A DNA stretch of 36,092 nt from an uncultured SAR116 cluster alpha proteobacterium (GTDB taxonomy: Bacteria; Pseudomonadota; Alphaproteobacteria; Puniceispirillales; Marisalimonadaceae). The notes under the pieces were generated by a model. The model was given only the letters and a program-made list of their open reading frames with translations, was not told the DNA's origin and searched no databases. Below are positions 26,783 to 36,092 of this stretch, piece by piece. The first letter of the stretch is position 1; every line of letters starts with the position of its first letter. The DNA lies in the NCBI GenBank assembly GCA_902595145.1, contig CACJOU010000011.1:1-36092 (forward strand), in the 5' to 3' direction. A program made the position numbers and the translations under genes.

Positions 26783-26874
26783 GGAGGGGTGGCTGAGTGG
26801 CTGAAGGCGCCGGTTTGCTAAATCGTTAAAGGGAGCAATCCCTTTCGGGGGTTCGAATCCCCCTCCCTCCGCCA
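26783..26874 (+). tRNA. tRNA-Ser (anticodon GCU)
   Basis: A class II tRNA including an encoded CCA (26872-26874). Acceptor strands GGAGGGG (26783-26789) and TCCCTCC (26864-26870) pair with one G-U; discriminator G at 26871. The anticodon loop is TTGCTAA (26816-26822) with GCT as anticodon, reading AGC/AGU codons. The long variable arm AAAGGG-agcaat-CCCTTT (26828-26845) is characteristic of serine tRNAs. T arm GGGGG TTCGAAT CCCCC (26847-26863). The anticodon stem has one G-U and an imperfect outermost pair but is otherwise normal. An integrase gene follows, so the 3' half is probably the attachment site of the downstream element. Confidence 0.95.
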
Positions 26875-27032: not shown

Positions 27033-28223
27033 TTGAATAGAATGAGTGCAGCTAAAATTATAAATCTTAAAAAACCGGGTATTTATGGTGACGGTGACGG
27101 CCTTAGATTAAGAATAACAAAAACCGGGAAAAAAAGTTGGATTTTTAGGTATAGATTATTTGGAAAAACTAAAGATATGGGGCTTGGATCTTTTCCACAA
27201 ATTTCATTAGCTAATGCACGCAAAAAAAGAGATCAACAAAAAGAATTAGTACTTCAAGACTTAGATCCAATTTTTGAAAAAAATAAAATAAAAATAGATT
27301 TAATTAAAAAAGAAGCAATGACATTTAAAGTTGCTGCTTCTAACTATATTGAAACATTTAAAGATCAATGGACTAATAAAAAACATAGCCAGCAATGGGT
27401 AAATACTCTCAAAAGATATGTTTACCCTCACATAGGTAGTTATCCCGTTTCAAAAATTAAAAACATAGATGTTCTTAAAATATTAAAACCAATTTGGTCT
27501 ACAAAAAATGAAACTGCAACAAGAGTAAGACAAAGGATTGAGAAAGTACTAAATTGGTCAATCACCCTAGGATATAGAGACCACCCTAACCCAGCTGCAC
27601 TTAATGGAAATTTAGAATATTTACTACCAAAATCTTCCGCAATTAGATCAGTTCAACATCATAGATCTTTACCATATGAAAATCTTCCAGAATTTGTATC
27701 TGATTTAAAGAAAACCAAATTATACTCAGCTAAAGCTCTTCTTTTTTTGATACTTACAGCTTCAAGAACTAGCGAAGTTATTGCAGCTGAATGGGATGAG
27801 TTTAATTTTAAACTCAAAATATGGAACATACCAGAAAACAGAATAAAAATTAGAAACAAACATAGCGTAACGCTTAATGAAAGTGCATTGGAGTTACTTA
27901 AAGAACTGAAGAACATCTCTGATAGTAAGTATGTTTTCCCGGGTACAAAAGCTGATACGCATATTTCAAATAATTCTATGTTAAAACTTCTAAAAAATAA
28001 CTTTCCTGAGATCTATAAGCAATCAGTTACACATGGTTTTAGATCATCATTTAGAGATTGGGCTGAAGAACAACACAACTTTTCAAGAAGGGCTGTGGAG
28101 CTATGTTTAAGTCATCAGAACAAAGATAAAACAGAAGAGGCTTACCTAAGATCAAAGCTTCTTCAAAAGCGGCATCTCATTATGAATGAATGGGACAATT
28201 ATTTGAAAGGAAAAACTAATTAA
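27033..28223 (+). CDS. Tyrosine recombinase, P4-type integrase with DUF4102 arm-binding domain
   Basis: A 396-residue site-specific recombinase. Residues 1-80 form the arm-type DNA-binding domain (KKPGIYGDGDGLRLRITKTGKKSWIFRYR and GLGSFPQISLANARKKRD), about 95-190 the core-binding SAM-like domain, and 210-390 the catalytic domain. The catalytic residues are Arg245 (TASRTSEV), His334 and Arg337 (THGFRSSFRDW), His361 (LSHQN) and the nucleophile Tyr371 (EEAYLR); all are present, so the protein should be active. It starts at TTG 27033 (GAGGG 7 nt upstream) or ATG 27042. Placed about 160 bp after tRNA-Ser in the same direction, it presumably integrates the island into that gene. A small zinc-finger gene follows after 1 bp. 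Confidence 0.95.
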   Translation: MNRMSAAKIINLKKPGIYGDGDGLRLRITKTGKKSWIFRYRLFGKTKDMGLGSFPQISLANARKKRDQQKELVLQDLDPIFEKNKIKIDLIKKEAMTFKVAASNYIETFKDQWTNKKHSQQWVNTLKRYVYPHIGSYPVSKIKNIDVLKILKPIWSTKNETATRVRQRIEKVLNWSITLGYRDHPNPAALNGNLEYLLPKSSAIRSVQHHRSLPYENLPEFVSDLKKTKLYSAKALLFLILTASRTSEVIAAEWDEFNFKLKIWNIPENRIKIRNKHSVTLNESALELLKELKNISDSKYVFPGTKADTHISNNSMLKLLKNNFPEIYKQSVTHGFRSSFRDWAEEQHNFSRRAVELCLSHQNKDKTEEAYLRSKLLQKRHLIMNEWDNYLKGKTN

Positions 28224-28224
28224 G

Positions 28225-28431
28225 ATGCTAAATTCAAATCAATATAAATGTAAATTGTGTCAATCTAATTTCATACCAAGAACCACAGGTGGTTCTACAA
28301 AAATATTTTGCTCTAATAAATGTAAGAACAAGTTTCATAGCTATTGTAAAAAATATTCTAAAAAGCTTCTTGAAAAAAATTTTATTTCCATTGAACAACT
28401 TCAAAATTTAGATACTAACTTTCATATCTGA
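28225..28431 (+). CDS. Small zinc-finger protein, 68 aa
   Basis: A basic 68-residue protein beginning 1 bp after the integrase stop, so probably made from the same message. It carries a Cys4 zinc-binding pattern: CKLC (residues 9-12) and CSNKC (29-33), separated by a loop with TGGSTKI, followed by a basic helix (KNKFHSYCKKYSKKLLEKN). Similar short treble-clef or zinc-ribbon proteins are common next to integrases and in phages, where they may be DNA-binding accessory factors such as excisionases or regulators. No known family was recognised with certainty. The functional guess is based only on the motif and the position. Confidence 0.68.
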   Translation: MLNSNQYKCKLCQSNFIPRTTGGSTKIFCSNKCKNKFHSYCKKYSKKLLEKNFISIEQLQNLDTNFHI

Positions 28432-28519
28432 TTATTTTTGTAAAATCCAAAATAAATCTACTTTAAAACATCTTTAGGTCTAATTTTCTACTTAAATTAA
28501 CACTTAAAGGAAAAAAATA

Positions 28520-28726
28520 ATGGCAAATAGTGGAATAGAATGGATTGATAATATTTTTAATTTTTGTGTAATATTACTCTATGATATAGGACATATTTTA
28601 GGAATAAGCTACGAAGAAGTAAATGTTTGGTTATTTGTAGTAATATGGCCATTTCTAAGCCTTATAATGTTAGCAGAGATAATAAGATTGCGTTTGAAGT
28701 TAATTATTAAAAAACAGAATCTTTAA
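28520..28726 (+). CDS. Small membrane protein, 68 aa
   Basis: I do not recognise a family with known function. The protein has two hydrophobic segments, about residues 11-29 (NIFNFCVILLYDIGHILGI) and 36-56 (WLFVVIWPFLSLIMLAEIIRL), joined by SYEEVNVW, and a short basic C-terminus (RLRLKLIIKKQ), giving a likely two-helix inner-membrane hairpin with the C-terminus in the cytosol. The loop 'GISYEEVNVWLFVVIWP' recalls small membrane proteins I have seen annotated as hypothetical in many genomes. AAAGGA lies 10 nt upstream of the ATG. It is the third gene after the integrase, 88 bp beyond the zinc-finger gene. A holin-, toxin- or effector-type role in the island is conceivable but unproven. Confidence 0.6.
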   Translation: MANSGIEWIDNIFNFCVILLYDIGHILGISYEEVNVWLFVVIWPFLSLIMLAEIIRLRLKLIIKKQNL

Positions 28727-28771
28727 AAATTATTAGTCTATAAAAGTACAAAATAAGTTAAGAAATTGAAT

Positions 28772-29437
28772 ATGAGCAACTTATACAAATTATTTAGCTT
28801 TGAAGAAACATCTTTTCTTGAAGATCACCAACTGTCAGAATTAGATGTTTATGATGCAAGATTTGAAAATAAAAAGTTAGCAAGGAAAAAGGCAAAAAAT
28901 AGTAATAAACAATTAATTTATGGAACACCGTGTATAAAACATGGCCACAGACTTAGAACTAGAGCTGGTCATTGTGTTATTTGCGATCCAACTAAATTAA
29001 GGTTTCAACAAAATTACCATGGGATTTTATTTAATCCTGTAGAAAACTTACGGGGATTATCTAACTTTTATGTTGCTGGATCTATTGACAAAAAACTAAT
29101 AAAAGTCGGTATTTCTAAAAATATAGAATACAGATTAAAACAGCTTAATGTTAATCAATATGCTGAATCTAATAATTGGAAAATTTTATTTACACATTGG
29201 GTGTCGGATCCGGGAGAAACCGAAACAAAAATTAAAAAAAGTATAGAAAAATTTCAAATAAAAGACCTTTTCTATTTTGATCAAGATGGTAAATACTCTG
29301 AAGCAAAAGAGGTATATAATATTAAATTTTCAGTCTTATATCGATTGTTTGTTCAAGAAATCAAAGAGCAAGGTTATACCGAGATCAAAACAAATTGGCA
29401 TTACTATAAAAAGTTAATTTTAAAAACATTTGGCTAA
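28772..29437 (+). CDS. GIY-YIG-like (T5orf172/MUG113 type) nuclease-domain protein with zinc motif
   Basis: A 221-residue protein. A zinc-binding cluster CIKHGHRLRTRAGHCVIC (about 53-70) precedes a GIY-YIG-like domain: SNFYVAGSIDKKLIKVGISKN (about 95-115) corresponds to the GIY and YIG strands (here FYV and KVG), Arg in YRLKQLN and Glu in GETETKIKKSI supply the remaining conserved positions. The Tyr residues of the classic motif are partly replaced, as in the T5orf172/MUG113 branch, whose members occur in phages and mobile elements. Nuclease activity is therefore possible, not certain. I chose the ATG at 28772 (MSNLYKLF) over the TTG two codons earlier. The gene converges on the helicase operon with 41 bp between stops. 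Confidence 0.68.
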   Translation: MSNLYKLFSFEETSFLEDHQLSELDVYDARFENKKLARKKAKNSNKQLIYGTPCIKHGHRLRTRAGHCVICDPTKLRFQQNYHGILFNPVENLRGLSNFYVAGSIDKKLIKVGISKNIEYRLKQLNVNQYAESNNWKILFTHWVSDPGETETKIKKSIEKFQIKDLFYFDQDGKYSEAKEVYNIKFSVLYRLFVQEIKEQGYTEIKTNWHYYKKLILKTFG

Positions 29438-29478: not shown

Positions 29479-32397
29479 TCATGAAGTAGTTATATATTTG
29501 TATAAATATTGATCTACTTCTTTATCGATTTTAAAATCAATTTTAACTACTGTTACATCACCATTATCTGATTTCATTTTAACTTCTTCAAAGCTATTTT
29601 TAATAGCTTTCAAGTTTCCTATAAAATAATAATCTTGTCCTTCATTATCGCTTTTTTTAACAAACAAAGGTATTTGAATATTATTGTTATCTTGATCATA
29701 AATTATTTTAACTTCTGGGCTATTTAAGTTACGTCTACTCTTAGTCATCCATGAGAAAGTAAATGGATCAATGAATTGATCCTCATATTTTGTACTATCT
29801 GAAATATCTTCTTTTTTTTCATAAGTTACAAAGATTGGACAATTAGTTTGATCTTCACTTACTTTATATCCTCCAACATTCTGAGCTACTGGGTTATTAT
29901 CCCAATTAAGTATTCTATGAATATGCCTTCTTTTATATTTTTCATATCTTATAAAGCCATCTAAAAAGTTTTCTTTTTTGAACTTTTTTAAATATGTATT
30001 TATAGAATAATTAACACTATCCCTTATAAATTTTTTAAAATCTAAATTTTCTAAAGCCTCCTTTAATGTTTTTTGTTTAACAAAATTATCATTAATTAAT
30101 TCTACATTAGAATAATTATACAATTCACCAACTGGGAATATTTTTTTGTTTGATTTTTCAGTTATAAAAAGAAGATTTAAATTATGAACAGCAGAATTAA
30201 TATCTTTCTCGCTGACACTAATTCCAGTCAATTCAAAAAGTTCATTTTTAAATTGTTTTAAGCTATAGATATCGTTATCGATAAGGTTTTCAAGAATTAG
30301 GCTCTCATATAACCTTTTCCCATCATTTATAAATTTTGAAAAATACTCTAAAAGTTTTTCTATATTACTATTGAACTTTACATAATTGTCTTCAACTGTA
30401 TTTAGGTAATTAGGATATGATTTAAATCTATCGACATATTGATATGGGTCTCTTGAACCGTTTTCATGAAAGTCTACCATCATGGGCACACGTCCAATCT
30501 TATATTTTAATAACTTGTAATCATTATCTAAATCTTTTTTAATTTGAAGATTTTGAGAATTAATTGATTCAAATATTTGTTGTCTAGAAATTCTATCAAA
30601 GTTAATTGTGCTAGCACCTGCTATTAGAGAGCTGCCGTGAGATAATAATCTTCTGAGAGTATCTTTGTCGTATGAAGTATCTCCAAACAAAGCAACAGGT
30701 ATCATGTAATTATTTTGATAATTTCCTATAAAATCTATAACCGTCAGATATTCTTTATTGTCAATCTTTCGAAGGCCTCTTCCCAACTGTTGAACAAATA
30801 TAATTGCAGATTGAGTGGGTCTCAACATTACGATTTGATTAATTTTAGGAATATCTATCCCTTCATTAAAAATATCAACCGTAAGGATATAATCCAATTT
30901 TTCATCTTTACTTTCACTCTCTAACATCCTAATAGCTTCAGCTCTTTCTTCTTCAGAATTTTTGCCTGAAAGTGCTAATGTTTTAAAGCCACGATCGTTT
31001 AATTTTATTGATAGTTTTTCTGCTTCTTCAACTCTTGAGCAAAACATCAAACCCCGAACATTACCGTCATCACAATCAAATTCTCTAATTTTTTCGATAA
31101 TTCTTTCAACTCGCTCATCAGATAACAAAATATTAAAATCACTATTTTCATCTAGTATTTTTCCATCAACACTAATGTCTGTAACACCAAAGTAGTGAAA
31201 AGGAGATAAAAGACCTTCATCTAAAGCTCTATTAAGTCTTATTTCATATCCAATGTTATGATCAAAATGTGTAAAGATATCAAATCCATCTGTTCTTTCA
31301 GGAGTTGCAGTCATACCTAAAAGAAAACTAGGTCTAAAATAATTTAAAACTCTTTTATAGGTCTGCCCTCCTGCTCTATGTGTTTCATCTATAATTATAT
31401 AGTCAAAGAAATCAGGCTTAAAATTATTCATATGTTCAGGGTTATTTATTGTTTGTACCGTGGAGAAAATAAAATCTTTTGTTACATCTCGAGTTTCACC
31501 TGAAAAGATCCCATAAGATCTTGTGTCTTTAAAAATATCTTTAAATGTCTCTAGTGCTTTAAGTGCAATATTCTTTCTGTGAACTATAAAAAGAAGTTTT
31601 TTGGCATCTGTTTCTTGAGCATCAAAAGCTGACATAACTGTCTTACCAGTTCCAGTTGCAGAAATAACAATCGCTTTATTTTTATTTTCTTTTCTGAGTT
31701 TTTCTAGATTTTCTATAGCCTCACTTTGCATAGAATTTGGTTGATAAATAATGTCATCAGTTTCATTAATATTTTTTTTGTTCATAAAGGTTTTAGAATT
31801 TACTTCATTATAATATTTTTCATATTCGTCTATAACTGAAGTATCAACTTTAATGGAATAATCTATGTACTTCTTATTTAATGAAGTAATCTCATGAATT
31901 ATCTTACTTTTATCTGAAGCAGTTACCTGAAGATTTACTTCAAGATTACTAGACAAAGCATCTTGAGTTAAATTACTACTGCCTACAATTAAATTATATT
32001 TATTATTATTCTTAAACAAAAAGCTTTTACCATGAAACTTTTTGTCCCTTAAAAAATATGTTTTAATATTTTTAAATTTACATAATTTTCTCATTGCCTC
32101 AGGTTGAGTAAAATTAGAATAATCTGAGATTATAACATTCCCAAATACGTTTTTCTCTTCGAGATCCTTAAAAGTATTATGTAAAGATTTGACACCACCA
32201 CTTGTTAAAAAAGCTACAGAAAAGGTAAATTCTTCACATTCTAATAAATTATCAATAATACTACTAAGTATCTTTTTTTCAGCTACTCTGTCATTTACTA
32301 GAATTTTAGGCTGCAGATTTTCAAAAGATTCTATTTCTCTATTTATAAAACCAGCATTTATCGAGTTTTGTAAATTTTCTAAAAAATTAGTCATCAT
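29479..32397 (-). CDS. PLD-nuclease/SF2 helicase/DUF3427-like fusion protein
   Basis: A 972-residue multidomain protein, last gene of the island operon. Residues about 30-180: phospholipase-D-like nuclease domain with a single HxK motif (His122-Lys124 in FHGKSFLF) and the GSSNLT motif (139-144), as in COG3886 'HKD' nucleases. Residues about 215-600: SSL2-type SF2 helicase with Walker A ATGTGKT (247-253), DETH box (337-340), GMTATP (361-366) and arginine-finger motif QQLGRGLRK (536-544). C-terminus (about 850-972): DUF3427-like region around DPFTFSWMTKSRRNL and DYYFIGNL. All motifs look intact. A nuclease plus translocase on mobile DNA points to DNA restriction or repair; many such fusions are suspected antiphage proteins. 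Starts at tandem ATGs (32397/32394), overlapping the Nudix gene by 11 bp. Confidence 0.88.
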   Translation of the reverse strand: MMTNFLENLQNSINAGFINREIESFENLQPKILVNDRVAEKKILSSIIDNLLECEEFTFSVAFLTSGGVKSLHNTFKDLEEKNVFGNVIISDYSNFTQPEAMRKLCKFKNIKTYFLRDKKFHGKSFLFKNNNKYNLIVGSSNLTQDALSSNLEVNLQVTASDKSKIIHEITSLNKKYIDYSIKVDTSVIDEYEKYYNEVNSKTFMNKKNINETDDIIYQPNSMQSEAIENLEKLRKENKNKAIVISATGTGKTVMSAFDAQETDAKKLLFIVHRKNIALKALETFKDIFKDTRSYGIFSGETRDVTKDFIFSTVQTINNPEHMNNFKPDFFDYIIIDETHRAGGQTYKRVLNYFRPSFLLGMTATPERTDGFDIFTHFDHNIGYEIRLNRALDEGLLSPFHYFGVTDISVDGKILDENSDFNILLSDERVERIIEKIREFDCDDGNVRGLMFCSRVEEAEKLSIKLNDRGFKTLALSGKNSEEERAEAIRMLESESKDEKLDYILTVDIFNEGIDIPKINQIVMLRPTQSAIIFVQQLGRGLRKIDNKEYLTVIDFIGNYQNNYMIPVALFGDTSYDKDTLRRLLSHGSSLIAGASTINFDRISRQQIFESINSQNLQIKKDLDNDYKLLKYKIGRVPMMVDFHENGSRDPYQYVDRFKSYPNYLNTVEDNYVKFNSNIEKLLEYFSKFINDGKRLYESLILENLIDNDIYSLKQFKNELFELTGISVSEKDINSAVHNLNLLFITEKSNKKIFPVGELYNYSNVELINDNFVKQKTLKEALENLDFKKFIRDSVNYSINTYLKKFKKENFLDGFIRYEKYKRRHIHRILNWDNNPVAQNVGGYKVSEDQTNCPIFVTYEKKEDISDSTKYEDQFIDPFTFSWMTKSRRNLNSPEVKIIYDQDNNNIQIPLFVKKSDNEGQDYYFIGNLKAIKNSFEEVKMKSDNGDVTVVKIDFKIDKEVDQYLYKYITTS

Positions 32398-32782
32398 ATT
32401 TTGCCATTAGTTCTTCAACTAGTTCTATATCCGCTTCAATCCAATCTAATTCTTTTAATTTGCTTACTTTTTGAAGTTTATAATCTATATGGTCATATAG
32501 CTTACCTTCAAAATTATTAGTTCTACAAATAAAAGTATGCATCTTGATTTCAAAATCTGGATACTTAAAAAAAATTGTTTTAAATTTATTTTCTATTTCT
32601 ATTTCTATTCTAAGTTCTTCTTTTATTTCTCTTTTTAAGGCTGTTTCGGCATCCTCATTTTCATTTAATTTTCCACCCGGAAATTCGTATTTAAAGGAAA
32701 CATAATCATATTTACCCTTACCTCTTTGGAAACATAGAATTTTTTTTTCTATGAAAATAATTGCAGCTGATACTTCAATCAT
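32387..32782 (-). CDS. Nudix hydrolase (MutT-like)
   Basis: A 131-residue Nudix protein. The Nudix box runs from GKLNENEDAETALK to REIKEELRI (about 37-59) and fits GX5EX7REUXEEXGU except that the final Gly is Arg, a common variant. The N-terminus EVSAAIIFIEKKILCFQRGKGKYDYVSFKYEFPGGKL resembles MutT-like (d)NTP pyrophosphohydrolases, which convert nucleoside triphosphates, often oxidised or pyrimidine ones, to monophosphates. I believe Nudix genes next to DUF3427-type helicases recur in other genomes, suggesting a working pair, but cannot verify this here. Its start ATGA overlaps the stop of the 85-residue upstream gene (4 bp) and its end overlaps the helicase gene by 11 bp. Confidence 0.88.
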   Translation of the reverse strand: MIEVSAAIIFIEKKILCFQRGKGKYDYVSFKYEFPGGKLNENEDAETALKREIKEELRIEIEIENKFKTIFFKYPDFEIKMHTFICRTNNFEGKLYDHIDYKLQKVSKLKELDWIEADIELVEELMAKYDD

Positions 32783-33036
32783 TTGCTAAATTCTAATTTA
32801 AATGATTCTATTGTGTAACCAACTTCTTCTCTCATTTTCAATGGTCCACCATCATCATATGCTTCTTCAAGAACCTCATAAAGATGGTTATTATCATATC
32901 TAAAAAAATCATTTATATCCGAGATACTTGTATTAAACTCTTTGTAAACGATTGCATGAAATTCATTATATATTTTTTTCTTTTGATAAAATGAAAAATC
33001 AATAATTTTATTTTTTTGCTCTAACATTACTATCAA
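32779..33036 (-). CDS. Unknown small cytosolic protein, 85 aa
   Basis: I recognise no family. The protein is acidic and aromatic-rich, with segments FSFYQKKKIYNEFHAIVYKEF and HLYEVLEEAYDDGGPLKMREEVGYTIESF, and should be mainly helical; no signal peptide, membrane segment or metal motif is seen. It starts at a TTG (33036) whose TTGA overlaps the protease stop, or at the ATG 9 bp further in (33027). Its stop overlaps the Nudix start by 4 bp. The overlaps on both sides show it is a real cistron, translated together with its neighbours. Possible roles are an inhibitor, adaptor or immunity-type partner of a neighbouring enzyme; this is speculation from its size and position only. Confidence 0.65.
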   Translation of the reverse strand: MIVMLEQKNKIIDFSFYQKKKIYNEFHAIVYKEFNTSISDINDFFRYDNNHLYEVLEEAYDDGGPLKMREEVGYTIESFKLEFSK

Positions 33037-34316
33037 CGTTTAATGTATTCTATCTTGTCTTTTTCAAGCTCTAGTCGAACAGAATAGTCAAGAGTTAGAA
33101 AACCTTGTCTAGATGTGTAACAACTTGTTATTAAATTGATTTCTTTTTTTCCTTCTGTAATTTTAGCAATATCACTTAGCGATTTTGGAATACTAGCATT
33201 CACGTATTTTATCCAACAATCTTTCCAAATTCCGTAAATATCTGCGTCTGAGCCAACTTTTATACTATGAATATAAAAAGGTCTTTGTTCAGAACTAATT
33301 TTTTCATAATTTTTAGCAGCTATTACCGCACCTGCTAAATTGATGTAGTCTCTATAAATACTGTTTTGCTTCTTCTTTAAATCTATGAAGTAGTCCTTTT
33401 CTCTATTTTTATTTTTAAATGTAAATTTTGCTTTTCCATCTAATCCTCTAAGAATGTAACTCATATCAGCAGGTGTTTTAATTAACTGGTCATTTACTTT
33501 TATTAGGCTTGAACCAATCTCTAAAATCTTGCCGTCTAAATGCAACTCAGACACCTTATTATGCTGTTCTGTTTCATTGTCTTTAGCGAACTTGATAGGA
33601 ACTTCCATAGGTAATGGACTTTTGCCAGCCTTATATAGATCTAAAATTTTACACAACAAATAAGAAGGAATAGCCAAACCAATTCCACTTGACTTCTTAA
33701 TAGTTGCCTTATTAACACCTACTATTAAACCTGTGTCTAAATTAATTAAAGGACCTCCAGAATTACCTGTATTAATAGCAGCGTCTGTTTGAATTACTTC
33801 CTTGCCGTAAAGAAATCTTTGATTGGATATAATACCTCTAGATGCTGAAAATTTTAGACCTTTTGGATGGCCGTATGCAGCAACTGCTGTACCGTTTGCA
33901 ATAGACTTGTCACAACTAAGTTTCGCTTCACTTGAATTTTGAGGCATTTTTTCTGTATCAACTTTAACTAAGGCTAGGTCTAATTCAGGATCAACGTAAA
34001 TCAATTTCGCTTTTATAAATTTCTCGCCTTTGAAGGCTATTTTAATAAAAGTATTACCTACTCCAGATACATGTGCATTTGTCACAATCAAGCCTAACGA
34101 TTTGTCGACAACAAAACCAGCTCCTACCCATGATCTAATAATCTGATCTTTGTCAGTATCTTCCACAAATGGATGGTCTACTAAAACTCTAAATCGAACT
34201 GTGTAGTCAGACGCTTCGTCAATATAACTTTTACCAAATGAATTAAAAGATAAAATAGAAAAGCCAAAGAATAGTAAAAGACATATATAATTTTTAATTT
34301 GTATTTTTTTTATCAT
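33033..34316 (-). CDS. Exported trypsin/HtrA-like serine protease
   Basis: A 427-residue protein from the ATG at 34316. I prefer this start because it forms an ATGA overlap with the upstream gene and is preceded by GACGAGG; an ATG four codons earlier is less likely. The N-terminus (basic, then YICLLLFFGFSILSF) is a signal peptide or anchor, placing the enzyme in the periplasm. The trypsin-like domain (about 35-230) has the full triad: His82 in VTNAHV, Asp113 in DPELDLAL and Ser176 in GNSGGPL, with oxyanion-loop sequence as in HtrA/DegS. The remaining 200 residues have no clear PDZ; a weak PDZ-like stretch with PFYIHSIKVGSDADIYGI lies near 345-370. Genes for a sigma-like and an unknown protein precede it in the operon. 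Confidence 0.87.
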   Translation of the reverse strand: MIKKIQIKNYICLLLFFGFSILSFNSFGKSYIDEASDYTVRFRVLVDHPFVEDTDKDQIIRSWVGAGFVVDKSLGLIVTNAHVSGVGNTFIKIAFKGEKFIKAKLIYVDPELDLALVKVDTEKMPQNSSEAKLSCDKSIANGTAVAAYGHPKGLKFSASRGIISNQRFLYGKEVIQTDAAINTGNSGGPLINLDTGLIVGVNKATIKKSSGIGLAIPSYLLCKILDLYKAGKSPLPMEVPIKFAKDNETEQHNKVSELHLDGKILEIGSSLIKVNDQLIKTPADMSYILRGLDGKAKFTFKNKNREKDYFIDLKKKQNSIYRDYINLAGAVIAAKNYEKISSEQRPFYIHSIKVGSDADIYGIWKDCWIKYVNASIPKSLSDIAKITEGKKEINLITSCYTSRQGFLTLDYSVRLELEKDKIEYIKR

Positions 34317-35350
34317 TCCTCGTCCCATTCATTAATTATTGGTTCTACCTCTGATTTTATTTTTTTAATATCATCGCGGTAATTTCTAATTCTATTTACT
34401 GCAAATGTATTTTCATAAATGTCTTTATTTAGCGAGAAACCTAATTTTTCAGTTAGTTTGTCTAATGAAGGCTTTTTATTAAAATTTAAAAAGTCATAGG
34501 TTTCTTCAACACTTGGAACAGCTTCAAGATTTCTTCTAGATAAGAAGCTGGTTCTTCTTGCAGAGTTTTTATCTATGTAAACTTCTACATATTCTCTCAA
34601 AGACTGAAGTTGACCTAATGTTTTATCAAAAAATTCTCTTGTTCGAAAAAAATCCTCATTGAAAAAATTTTCTGTATTCTCTTTAAGATCTAGAGACTGA
34701 TTTAATATATGTCGCAGAAATCCATCTTTACCATAGTATTCACTTTTATTGATGTTTTTCTTTATTAGATCTTCAATAATATTTATTAAATTTGAATTTT
34801 TTAAATTGTCTTGTCCAAAATCTCTATTAGATGCTAATAAATTCCTTATCCTTTTTGCATAAGAAATTCTTTTGTCTAATTCATTTATAATAGACGAGAA
34901 ATCAATTTCGTCGCCATCATCTCTTTCTAGGGAATAATTAGCTTCTAAGTATTCAGAAGGCAAACTTCGTGAAAACGACTCAGATCTTTCTAAACTACTT
35001 AAATCAATACTATTAGAGGTGAAATTGTCCTCATAAAGTTTAAAAAAGTCATCAGAATGATTTTCAGCTATATAAAAAAGGATGTCGTCGAAATCTTCTT
35101 CTTCTTTAATGAATTTTTCAAAGTATCGAACTACATTTTTATCTTTTTGCAAATTGAAGAAATCACTATAACTAAAATTAAGTTGGATTAAATCTAGATC
35201 CTTTGTAAAAACGTCTTCAATAGATTTTTTATAACCAATAGAAAATGCCTTTTTAACAAATTTATCTATTGCTTGATTTTCCCAAAATTCTGGATCGGTA
35301 TTTTTGAAAAAATCATTTAGTCTTTCTAAATCAAGCTCAAGAACACCCAT
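34313..35350 (-). CDS. Unknown acidic, helical protein, 345 aa
   Basis: I do not recognise this protein. It is hydrophilic and acidic, with no signal peptide or membrane segment, and looks mainly alpha-helical. Long amphipathic stretches occur around residues 150-180 (IINELDKRISYAKRIRNLL), 190-215 and 240-270, and a basic patch at about 279-289 (RRTSFLSRRNL). An aromatic-acidic N-terminus (MGVLELDLERLNDFFKNTDPEFWEN) is notable. Its ATG overlaps the stop of the sigma-like gene by one base (TAATG) and its TGA overlaps the protease start (ATGA), so it is translated between them and may form a complex with, or act as a regulator of, either one. An anti-sigma-like or adaptor role is a guess. Confidence 0.75.
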   Translation of the reverse strand: MGVLELDLERLNDFFKNTDPEFWENQAIDKFVKKAFSIGYKKSIEDVFTKDLDLIQLNFSYSDFFNLQKDKNVVRYFEKFIKEEEDFDDILFYIAENHSDDFFKLYEDNFTSNSIDLSSLERSESFSRSLPSEYLEANYSLERDDGDEIDFSSIINELDKRISYAKRIRNLLASNRDFGQDNLKNSNLINIIEDLIKKNINKSEYYGKDGFLRHILNQSLDLKENTENFFNEDFFRTREFFDKTLGQLQSLREYVEVYIDKNSARRTSFLSRRNLEAVPSVEETYDFLNFNKKPSLDKLTEKLGFSLNKDIYENTFAVNRIRNYRDDIKKIKSEVEPIINEWDEE

Positions 35351-35913
35351 TATAAATTCTCCCTTGAATTCATATTAATGACATTACTATCATCGTCATT
35401 TAATTTTAGACGTGCTTTTTGGAAGGCTCTTCTTCTTCTTTTCACAGCTGTATTTAATACCGGTATATCATTTCTAGCCTGATAATCTTCTGGAGATTCA
35501 TCTGTAACAACAGACAACAAAGCATCTTTTTCCTGTTCGTCTAAAGCATCTAAATACTTCATGATCAAAGCATGGTTTTCAGGACTAGAAAACTTTGTTT
35601 TAGCTATTAAATTTTCATGAATAACGCTGTTATTATTGGCATTAGTTTCATAAGCCTCTACTTCTTCTTCAAAATTGACCGTCTTTATTGTTTTAGAGTC
35701 AATTGCTGCATTTTTTGCAATTGTATAAAAAAATCCAACTTCAACACTAATTTCCTCATTAGATTTTTGTTTATTTTTTTTCCATACAAGAAACTTAGCA
35801 ACAACAGTATTAATTAAGTCATTTGTTTCTTCAAATCCACTTTTGTACTTTAAAGAGGCTTTTCGAATTGTCTTATAGTTTTTATTTATATAGACTTCAC
35901 AAGTTCCACACAT
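35350..35913 (-). CDS. ECF sigma-70-like protein
   Basis: A 187-residue protein that resembles an ECF-type sigma factor. Residues about 14-72 fit region 2 (IRKASLKYKSGFEETNDLINTVVAKFLVWKK ... FFYTIAKNAAID), and residues about 118-171 fit region 4 with its helix-turn-helix (LDALDEQEKDALLSVVT ... IPVLNTAVKRRRRAFQKARLKL). The N-terminus is odd, starting MCGTCEVYI with a CxxC pair. Region 2 lacks a textbook DA-D-Q-xVF motif, so it may be a diverged or non-canonical factor. AAAGG lies 9 nt before the ATG. It follows the partly visible upstream gene by 14 bp and precedes the unknown 345-residue gene. It may switch on the operon itself or respond to proteolysis. Confidence 0.68.
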   Translation of the reverse strand: MCGTCEVYINKNYKTIRKASLKYKSGFEETNDLINTVVAKFLVWKKNKQKSNEEISVEVGFFYTIAKNAAIDSKTIKTVNFEEEVEAYETNANNNSVIHENLIAKTKFSSPENHALIMKYLDALDEQEKDALLSVVTDESPEDYQARNDIPVLNTAVKRRRRAFQKARLKLNDDDSNVINMNSRENL

Positions 35914-35927
35914 ATATTGAACCTTTC

Positions 35928-36092
35928 TTAAATATAATAATAAGCATGAATTAATTTATTTTCAAAAAAAACAGATCGTCCGTTGTGCTGTTCATCGGAA
36001 CTATAATTGTCCTCAACACCAATGGAATTTTCTTTATCCCAAATTGTTTCTAAAAAATTATAGAGTGGTTGATTGGTGTTTATATCCTCGTA
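35928..36092 (-). CDS. C-terminal end of an unknown protein (runs off window)
   Basis: An open frame of 54 codons enters from the right edge and stops at TAA (35928-35930), 14 bp before the sigma-like gene. The visible part is acidic and hydrophilic (e.g. NFLETIWDKENS, GVEDNYSSDEQHNGR, ending FFENKLIHAYYYI). It shows no known motif. Its position and spacing make it the preceding gene of the same operon. The operon promoter must lie outside the window. Confidence 0.55.
   Translation of the reverse strand, partial: YEDINTNQPLYNFLETIWDKENSIGVEDNYSSDEQHNGRSVFFENKLIHAYYYI

Follow-up and report, generated by a model that had tools for sequence, protein, structure and literature searches.

Two defence-like modules, a SauUSI-type nuclease with a Nudix hydrolase and an ARPP operon, meet in one gene row of an uncultured SAR116 cluster alphaproteobacterium

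We analyzed a 36,092-nt stretch of DNA from an uncultured SAR116 cluster alphaproteobacterium (hereafter the window, which is the entire contig G000:C11; the genome, G000, is 72% complete), and in particular the gene row at its right end. The row occupies 29479-36092 on the minus strand and consists of six complete open reading frames (ORFs) and one truncated by the window edge (Table 1). In the direction of transcription, these encode a fragment of an ARPP protein, an ECF-sigma-like protein, a protein termed U here, an HtrA-like serine protease, a small protein, a Nudix hydrolase and a PLD-helicase of the SauUSI type. Rather than one system, the row comprises two defence-like modules that adjoin at the Nudix start codon. 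Module A runs from the ARPP gene to the small protein, and module B is formed by the Nudix and nuclease genes. Both modules belong to known kinds and neither is a new one. The combined explanation, which joins the two-module split with a nucleotide guard in module B and an ARPP operon as module A, stands in our judgment slightly on the probable side of even. An initial annotation of this DNA had reported at least seven minus-strand genes, of which seven were recovered here (six complete, plus the ARPP gene cut by the contig end), and had preferred to see in them one multi-gene system. It is rather its second option, two adjacent modules, that the homology break at 32782 and the separate occurrence of the two parts bear out.

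The junction is seen in blastn comparisons with two relatives. The DNA homology of the window to L017 (genome G329) amounts to 92.0% from 32782 to 36092 (3,311 bp) and that to L018 (G331) to 89.4% from 32782 to 36090, and in both the last homologous position is the base with which the Nudix start codon begins. The small gene, which stops at the Nudix ATGA, is seven codons shorter than the L017 and L018 versions. Neither the Nudix nor a full-length SauUSI-type gene was found in any of the six relatives carrying the sigma-like gene (G312, G326, G329, G331, G338, and G459) in the 7-29 kb of sequence read from each, and one weak match in L019 comes from a chromosomal DEAD-box helicase. Concerning the family, a full-length SauUSI-type gene was detected at E 1e-100 in 1/58 genomes, the window's own. 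The SauUSI profile matched 2/398 genomes of the phylum (E 1e-150), 5/369 of the class of G074 (E 1e-120) and two of 14 named control genomes. No module A genes occur among the annotated neighbours of Nudix plus PLD-helicase elsewhere, and G074 has no module A match. We therefore read the row as two modules on what is likely one shared transcript, because of the break at 32782, the absence of module B from the stretches read of the six relatives and the rarity of SauUSI in the family.

A single seven-gene system, with a signal that the sigma-like protein would relay to the Nudix and the PLD-helicase as effectors, is the reading suggested by the overlapping genes on one strand. A gap of 14 bp precedes the sigma-like gene and is followed by successive overlaps of 1 bp (TAATG), 4 bp (ATGA), 4 bp (TTGA), 4 bp (ATGA), and 11 bp; all junctions were re-read by script and agree with those first described. 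The earlier statement that these overlaps indicate selection for co-expression holds in so far as co-expression is likely in this strain. Short gene overlaps are common in bacterial operons and alone are no proof of one system. Additionally, restriction-type nucleases, sometimes with helicases, are variable effectors of ARG systems according to Iyer and colleagues (PMC9503650, section 3.8). Set against the homology break, the 0/6 count for the stretches read and the one SauUSI gene among 58 family genomes, a seven-gene system seems to us very improbable.

Full-length homology identifies the 972-aa module B protein as a SauUSI-type Type IV restriction enzyme, with a cleavage specificity that is predicted from the same homology. 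It aligns with solved SauUSI (PDB 7clg) over residues 3-970 (E = 6.9e-195) and matches the PADLOC profile mREase_IV (E = 1.1e-202), so that the initial impression of a row without any nameable system had to be given up. Its Pfam matches (PLDc_2, ResIII, Helicase_C, and DUF3427) correspond to a PLD nuclease, an SF2 helicase and a C-terminal DUF3427/SRA-type recognition part in one chain, the same three parts as in SauUSI. His122 is aligned to the catalytic PLD His119 of SauUSI, whose replacement in H119A yields a nuclease-inactive mutant (PMC7913695). In that paper, SauUSI is described to cut DNA bearing S5mCNGS, the target base being 5-methyl- or 5-hydroxymethylcytosine, to recognize the modified base by an SRA-fold domain and to move along DNA in an ATP-driven manner. 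The words Nudix, MutT, and operon are absent from its main text. What sets the window version apart from SauUSI is its place on a tRNA-Ser island, next to an ARPP module to which it is unrelated and joined.

The Nudix hydrolase of module B belongs to the PADLOC PDC-S07 type (E = 1.3e-40). Its Nudix box, read against the usual consensus, starts at residue 37 and has an Arg in place of the usual late Gly. The closest solved chain is 3gwy (E = 2.1e-30, 45% identity over 124 residues), followed by a chain at 8.7e-18. For 3GWY (Q5LBB1), PMC5158307 gives kcat/Km values of 6.7e6 for 5-Me-CTP, 4.8e6 for 5-Me-dCTP, 4.4e6 for 5-MeOH-dCTP, and 8.5e4 for 5-OH-dCTP. The enzyme was far less active on canonical nucleoside triphosphates. 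In a tree of 15 sequences, 3GWY groups with the window Nudix and the Nudix partners from Hymenobacter and G074 (89/88). The substrate of the window Nudix is thus inferred to be 5-modified deoxycytidine triphosphate (dCTP), an activity that is published for 3GWY only and predicted for the window enzyme. The first description of the row had the Nudix act on nucleotides and the PLD-helicase on foreign DNA, a guess that fits. Searching plasmids with the window Nudix at E 1e-5 returned five matches in all (Collinsella, Treponema, Selenomonas, Hymenobacter, and S. aureus); wider plasmid searches were mixed with MutT and NudG and were kept out of the context counts. In Collinsella (L085:4992-5981), a single 329-aa fusion protein combines a PDC-S07-type Nudix with the mismatch endonuclease Vsr, an independent hint of a link between this Nudix type and 5-methylcytosine biology. 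In Treponema, a Nudix of the same type has two cytosine-5 methyltransferases and an Eco47II-type gene close by.

To our knowledge, modification-dependent restriction enzymes, having no partner methyltransferase, are usually described as solitary actors. We collected 14 SauUSI homologues outside the window, comprising six plasmid and three phage-labelled records (at least 80% query cover) and five from the genome search, including G074. A PDC-S07-type Nudix is established no more than 100 bp from the nuclease in nine of them. It precedes the nuclease in Hymenobacter, L. plantarum, Latilactobacillus, L. fermentum, S. aureus (two records), and G074, and follows it in two faecal contigs. Seven of the nine were scored for PDC-S07 membership, while the Nudix of L087 and that of L088 were recognized by tblastn only. 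Collapsing same-lineage records leaves the pairing at 8/11. A neighbouring Nudix does not belong to the accepted definition of SauUSI-type enzymes and is put forward here as a partner. As a contrast set we used 37 viral matches to the SauUSI profile, mostly in the helicase region (L044 extends into the PLD part; L065, L076, L077, and L078 are short fragments), and none of these loci had a Nudix neighbour. The difference (Fisher p = 6.6e-7; 4.4e-7 after collapsing) excludes only a general helicase feature, as the sets differ beyond the pairing. Furthermore, pairwise identities of the Nudix and of the nuclease correlate over eight pairs (r = 0.66; 1/5000 permutations as high). The SauUSI copies of L081 and L082 are broken and were compared piecewise. 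SauUSI of S. aureus likewise has a PDC-S07-type Nudix directly upstream. Specifically, the L086 nuclease corresponds to SauUSI itself or to an allele nearly identical to it (7clg, 2065.7 bits, 953 residues), and the L086 Nudix shares 97% identity with the L081 Nudix (L081:3607-3999), which is letter-identical to PDB 5x1x, deposited as 'Mutator mutT protein'. In the open-access literature searched, no report linking a SauUSI-type nuclease to a Nudix of matching base specificity was found; the passages available from PMC7159879 mention SauUSI and Nudix in separate sections. As a separate observation, a MazG-like pyrophosphohydrolase, of a second nucleotide-cleaning family, follows SauUSI in L. 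plantarum (L004:6898-7218) and L. fermentum (L082:6930-7241).

Nuclease and Nudix appear, as judged from their homologues, to target the same two modifications, the former in DNA and the latter in the nucleotide pool. Both activities have been demonstrated in relatives; for the window genes, homology and linkage are shown, and the Nudix substrate and role are inferred. In the mechanism that we propose, the PLD-helicase would recognize 5-methyl- or 5-hydroxymethylcytosine in incoming DNA and then shred this DNA. Modified nucleotides freed by the shredding could be rephosphorylated and incorporated, and host DNA would in this way be marked for the nuclease. The Nudix would hydrolyse the matching 5-modified dCTP and, as a guard, would keep salvaged modified dCTP out of the host chromosome. 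That the Nudix is such a self-protecting guard of the nucleotide pool against attack on the host by the nuclease is the role that we take as most likely and place just short of even. In its full form the proposal is that one base modification is policed at two levels, in DNA by the nuclease and among triphosphates by the Nudix. The Nudix gene would then confer self-immunity on the host of a restriction enzyme without methyltransferase, in an arrangement that includes S. aureus SauUSI. This form we hold as plausible, though somewhat below even, and slightly lower for the lack of clustering of the partner Nudix in the tree. If true for many such enzymes, it would explain how self-restriction is avoided during salvage of modified nucleotides, and the PADLOC candidate PDC-S07 would gain a function.

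Several observations weigh against the guard. The partner Nudix was not found in five of the 14 homologues (Fusobacterium L006; L117-L119, of one genus; L120; about 10 kb each), and the pairing is thus non-obligatory. The window Nudix scores 56.7 bits with the curated NudG-type model NF007834 (cut-off 156) and 58.3 bits with the MutT model (cut-off 97.9), below the cut-off in both cases. No branch of the 15-sequence tree reaches the starred level, and the partner Nudix do not cluster in it (five changes; 389/500 shuffles as low). In the Selenomonas plasmid the same Nudix family has no evident link to 5-methylcytosine among its annotated neighbours. In favour of the guard, no PF00145 methyltransferase was detected in G000 or G074, with the control positive in 10/14 genomes, but this negative is weak for G000 at its 72% completeness. 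A general MutT-like housecleaning Nudix, which co-travels with the nuclease and is functionally uncoupled from it, would be in line with the five unpaired homologues, the like scores of the MutT and NudG models and the unresolved tree with its unclustered partners. We nevertheless consider it unlikely in view of the Nudix genes that lie upstream or downstream of the nuclease in distantly related lineages (9/14), their absence from all 37 loci of the helicase contrast set, the correlated identities and the base specificity of 3GWY.

The main rival to self-protection is an offensive role, in which the Nudix would drain the 5-hydroxymethyl- or 5-methyl-dCTP made by a phage, leaving the phage to face other nucleases with plain cytosine or shredding with modified cytosine. 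5-MeOH-dCTP is the precursor used by T-even phages, which counts in its favour. So does the like treatment of 5-Me-dCTP and 5-MeOH-dCTP by 3GWY, as reported in PMC5158307. However, removal of the modification would also remove the target of the nuclease, and the two activities would be opposed on one phage. We regard the offensive role as improbable, and the present data do not separate it from self-protection.

We classify module A as an ARPP operon of the predicted ADP-ribose conflict kind, in most cases with ARG near, and our confidence in the mechanism is low. The cut gene at the contig end is ARPP, as it shares 98% identity over 53 residues with the intact ARPP of L018 (stop codon checked), which in turn matches PF20208 with 171.6 bits. 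The sigma-like gene was found in seven of 136 genomes of the order, and in all seven, the window fragment counted, ARPP directly precedes it, being intact in the six relatives. The right window edge is the contig end, and the stretch 5' of the row is visible only in relatives; a search of G000 for the upstream genes ARPP and ARG gave only the ARPP fragment, with no ARG elsewhere in the genome. ARG stands in the same row in four of six relatives (G312, G329, G331, and G338, in the last after a GIY-YIG gene), although ARG homologues are in general common (24/58 family genomes). The ARPP profile matched eight of the 58 family genomes, missing the window fragment. The sigma-like gene is present in five of these eight and missing from G324, G339, and G349 (the last two on short contigs). 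Outside the order, ARPP was found in 3/398 genomes of the phylum, and no sigma, U, or HtrA matches lie near it in L026, L027, or L028.

Systems centred on ARG, some with ARPP, have been predicted computationally to counter phage ADP-ribosylation (PMC9503650, section 3.8). In the same source, a Nudix- or WYL-type regulator and a phosphatase occur in over 42% and over 55% of systems, respectively, and are hence not universal. Module A resembles these systems by ARPP in all seven genomes, by ARG in most relatives and by an NrtR-like Nudix regulator that stands beside it in G312 only. It differs from them by the sigma-like protein, U, and the HtrA-like protease, and no rhodanese-phosphatase match was obtained among ten proteins scanned. 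The words sigma and trypsin are absent from the main text of PMC9503650, and an extension of ARPP operons by sigma-like, U, and HtrA genes was not found in the open-access literature searched. Module A adds a branch with a sigma-like protein, U, and an exported protease to the predicted ADP-ribose conflict systems of PMC9503650. Among the relatives, the module A contig of G331 also carries a type I Zorya system (ZorA, ZorB, ZorC, and ZorD by PADLOC) at L018:15-7432, and a similar set of membrane proteins (L018:7522-10376) lies between Zorya and ARG. In G324, the gene after ARPP encodes a 995-aa protein that has a CHAT protease domain and a signal-peptide-like start (L039:8617-11604), and nearby ORFs (L039:1856-4743) resemble, by eye, another sigma-like protein (315 aa) with a 646-aa partner.

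The sigma-like label itself stands in part. Matches to TIGR02937 were obtained in five of five homologues, all of them sub-threshold (best E = 1e-6), and the window protein scores 23 bits against a curated cut-off of 42.9. Its AlphaFold model, of low confidence, found no match at E up to 0.001 in a fold search; compared with sigma-factor chains, several of them solved with anti-sigma factors, it gave E values of at least 0.42, and with sigma region 4 chains it aligned over 56-62 columns at E of at least 2.8. The protein had no match in plasmids. Homologues of U are detectable in five relatives (G312, G326, G329, G331, and G338), and the ORF in the position of U in G459 shows only a weak C-terminal match of 39 residues (hhalign probability 16%). 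Pfam gave no match to U over cut-off, and its hydropathy profile shows no membrane segment (highest 19-residue value 0.33). U had no match in plasmids, 298 other genomes of the phylum, or viral contigs; one locus was found in the genome-contig collection. By comparison with L017 and L018, the protease most likely begins at 34316 (427 aa) rather than at 34328. It matches Trypsin_2 (E = 1.4e-24) and, below the cut-off of that model, the Do-family TIGR02037 (E = 5.4e-41). Its N-terminus is signal-peptide-like with a hydropathy peak at residue 10. The motifs TNAHV at 79, DLALV at 113, and GNSGGPL at 184 are presumably those of the catalytic triad His, Asp, and Ser. No PDZ domain was matched in Pfam at E 1, yet a DegQ chain aligns over residues 44-409. 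Concerning the 85-aa small protein, no Pfam, PADLOC, or NCBIfam match was obtained at E 1.

For these genes, the reading that we find most likely, and hold tentatively at well below even, is that the sigma-like protein and U may form a regulatory switch of the ARPP operon, with the exported protease acting as an accessory envelope effector. Telling against this picture of module A are the poor AlphaFold models of the sigma-like protein (mean predicted local distance difference test, pLDDT, 55.8) and U (mean pLDDT 52.0), the presence of HtrA in only four of the seven genomes (G312, G329, G331, and the window), and the failure to find ARG in the stretches of G326 and G459. Sigma-E/RseA/DegS and the CRISPR-linked CalpS/CalpT/CalpL are relays of a sigma factor, an anti-sigma factor and a protease, and the gene order would suit such a relay of sigma-like protein, U, and HtrA, as would the above matches of the sigma model to chains partly from anti-sigma complexes. 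A relay like sigma-E/RseA/DegS would, though, call for a membrane-spanning anti-sigma factor within reach of the exported protease; with U lacking a membrane segment by hydropathy and the protease apparently exported, the protease should not reach U. Moreover, G326, G338, and G459 keep the sigma-like gene and no HtrA was found in the stretches read from them. We therefore rate the relay as quite unlikely. In G326, the HtrA place is occupied by two proteins with signal-peptide-like starts and no Pfam match (L021:9554-11109).

Table 1. Features of the gene row and of the adjoining island in the window.
Feature	Position	Strand	Evidence
SauUSI-type Type IV restriction enzyme (by homology), module B, 972 aa	29479..32397	-	PDB 7clg, PADLOC mREase_IV, Pfam
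Nudix hydrolase, PADLOC PDC-S07 type, module B, 131 aa; predicted 5-modified-(d)CTP pyrophosphohydrolase	32387..32782	-	PDC-S07, PDB 3gwy
Small protein, module A, 85 aa	32779..33036	-	74-75% identity with L017/L018 counterparts
Trypsin-type (HtrA-like) serine protease, predicted exported, module A, 427 aa	33033..34316	-	Trypsin_2, hydropathy, motifs
Protein U, module A, 345 aa	34313..35350	-	Homologues in G312, G326, G329, G331, G338
ECF-sigma-like protein, module A, 187 aa	35350..35913	-	TIGR02937, sub-threshold
ARPP (PF20208) fragment, module A; final 54 codons and stop, truncated by contig end	35928..36092	-	L018 ARPP
Module junction	32782	.	Last base of blastn homology to L017/L018, first base of Nudix start codon
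Tyrosine integrase of island	27033..28223	+	Phage_int_M, Arm-DNA-bind_3, Phage_integrase
tRNA-Ser(GCT), probable attachment site	26783..26874	+	ARAGORN

The row lies on an integrase-bearing island, as had been noted at first, and the left side of this island is marked by the tRNA-Ser gene with the adjoining tyrosine integrase. In G312 and G326, a related integrase is established at the same tRNA (3' end kept; L019 and L021) and beside a LysR-type flank, with module A near. A search of seven stretches for a repeat of the tRNA 3' end gave none. Next to the integrase, 28225-28726 encodes two 68-aa proteins, one zinc-finger-like and one hydrophobic; both keep their integrase-side place in G312 and G329, and G326 keeps the hydrophobic one. 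Finally, a GIY-YIG-type protein at 28766-29437 is convergent with the SauUSI-type gene, and a relative of it (31%, E = 2.7e-17) is located between U and ARG in G338 (L042:6162-6812).

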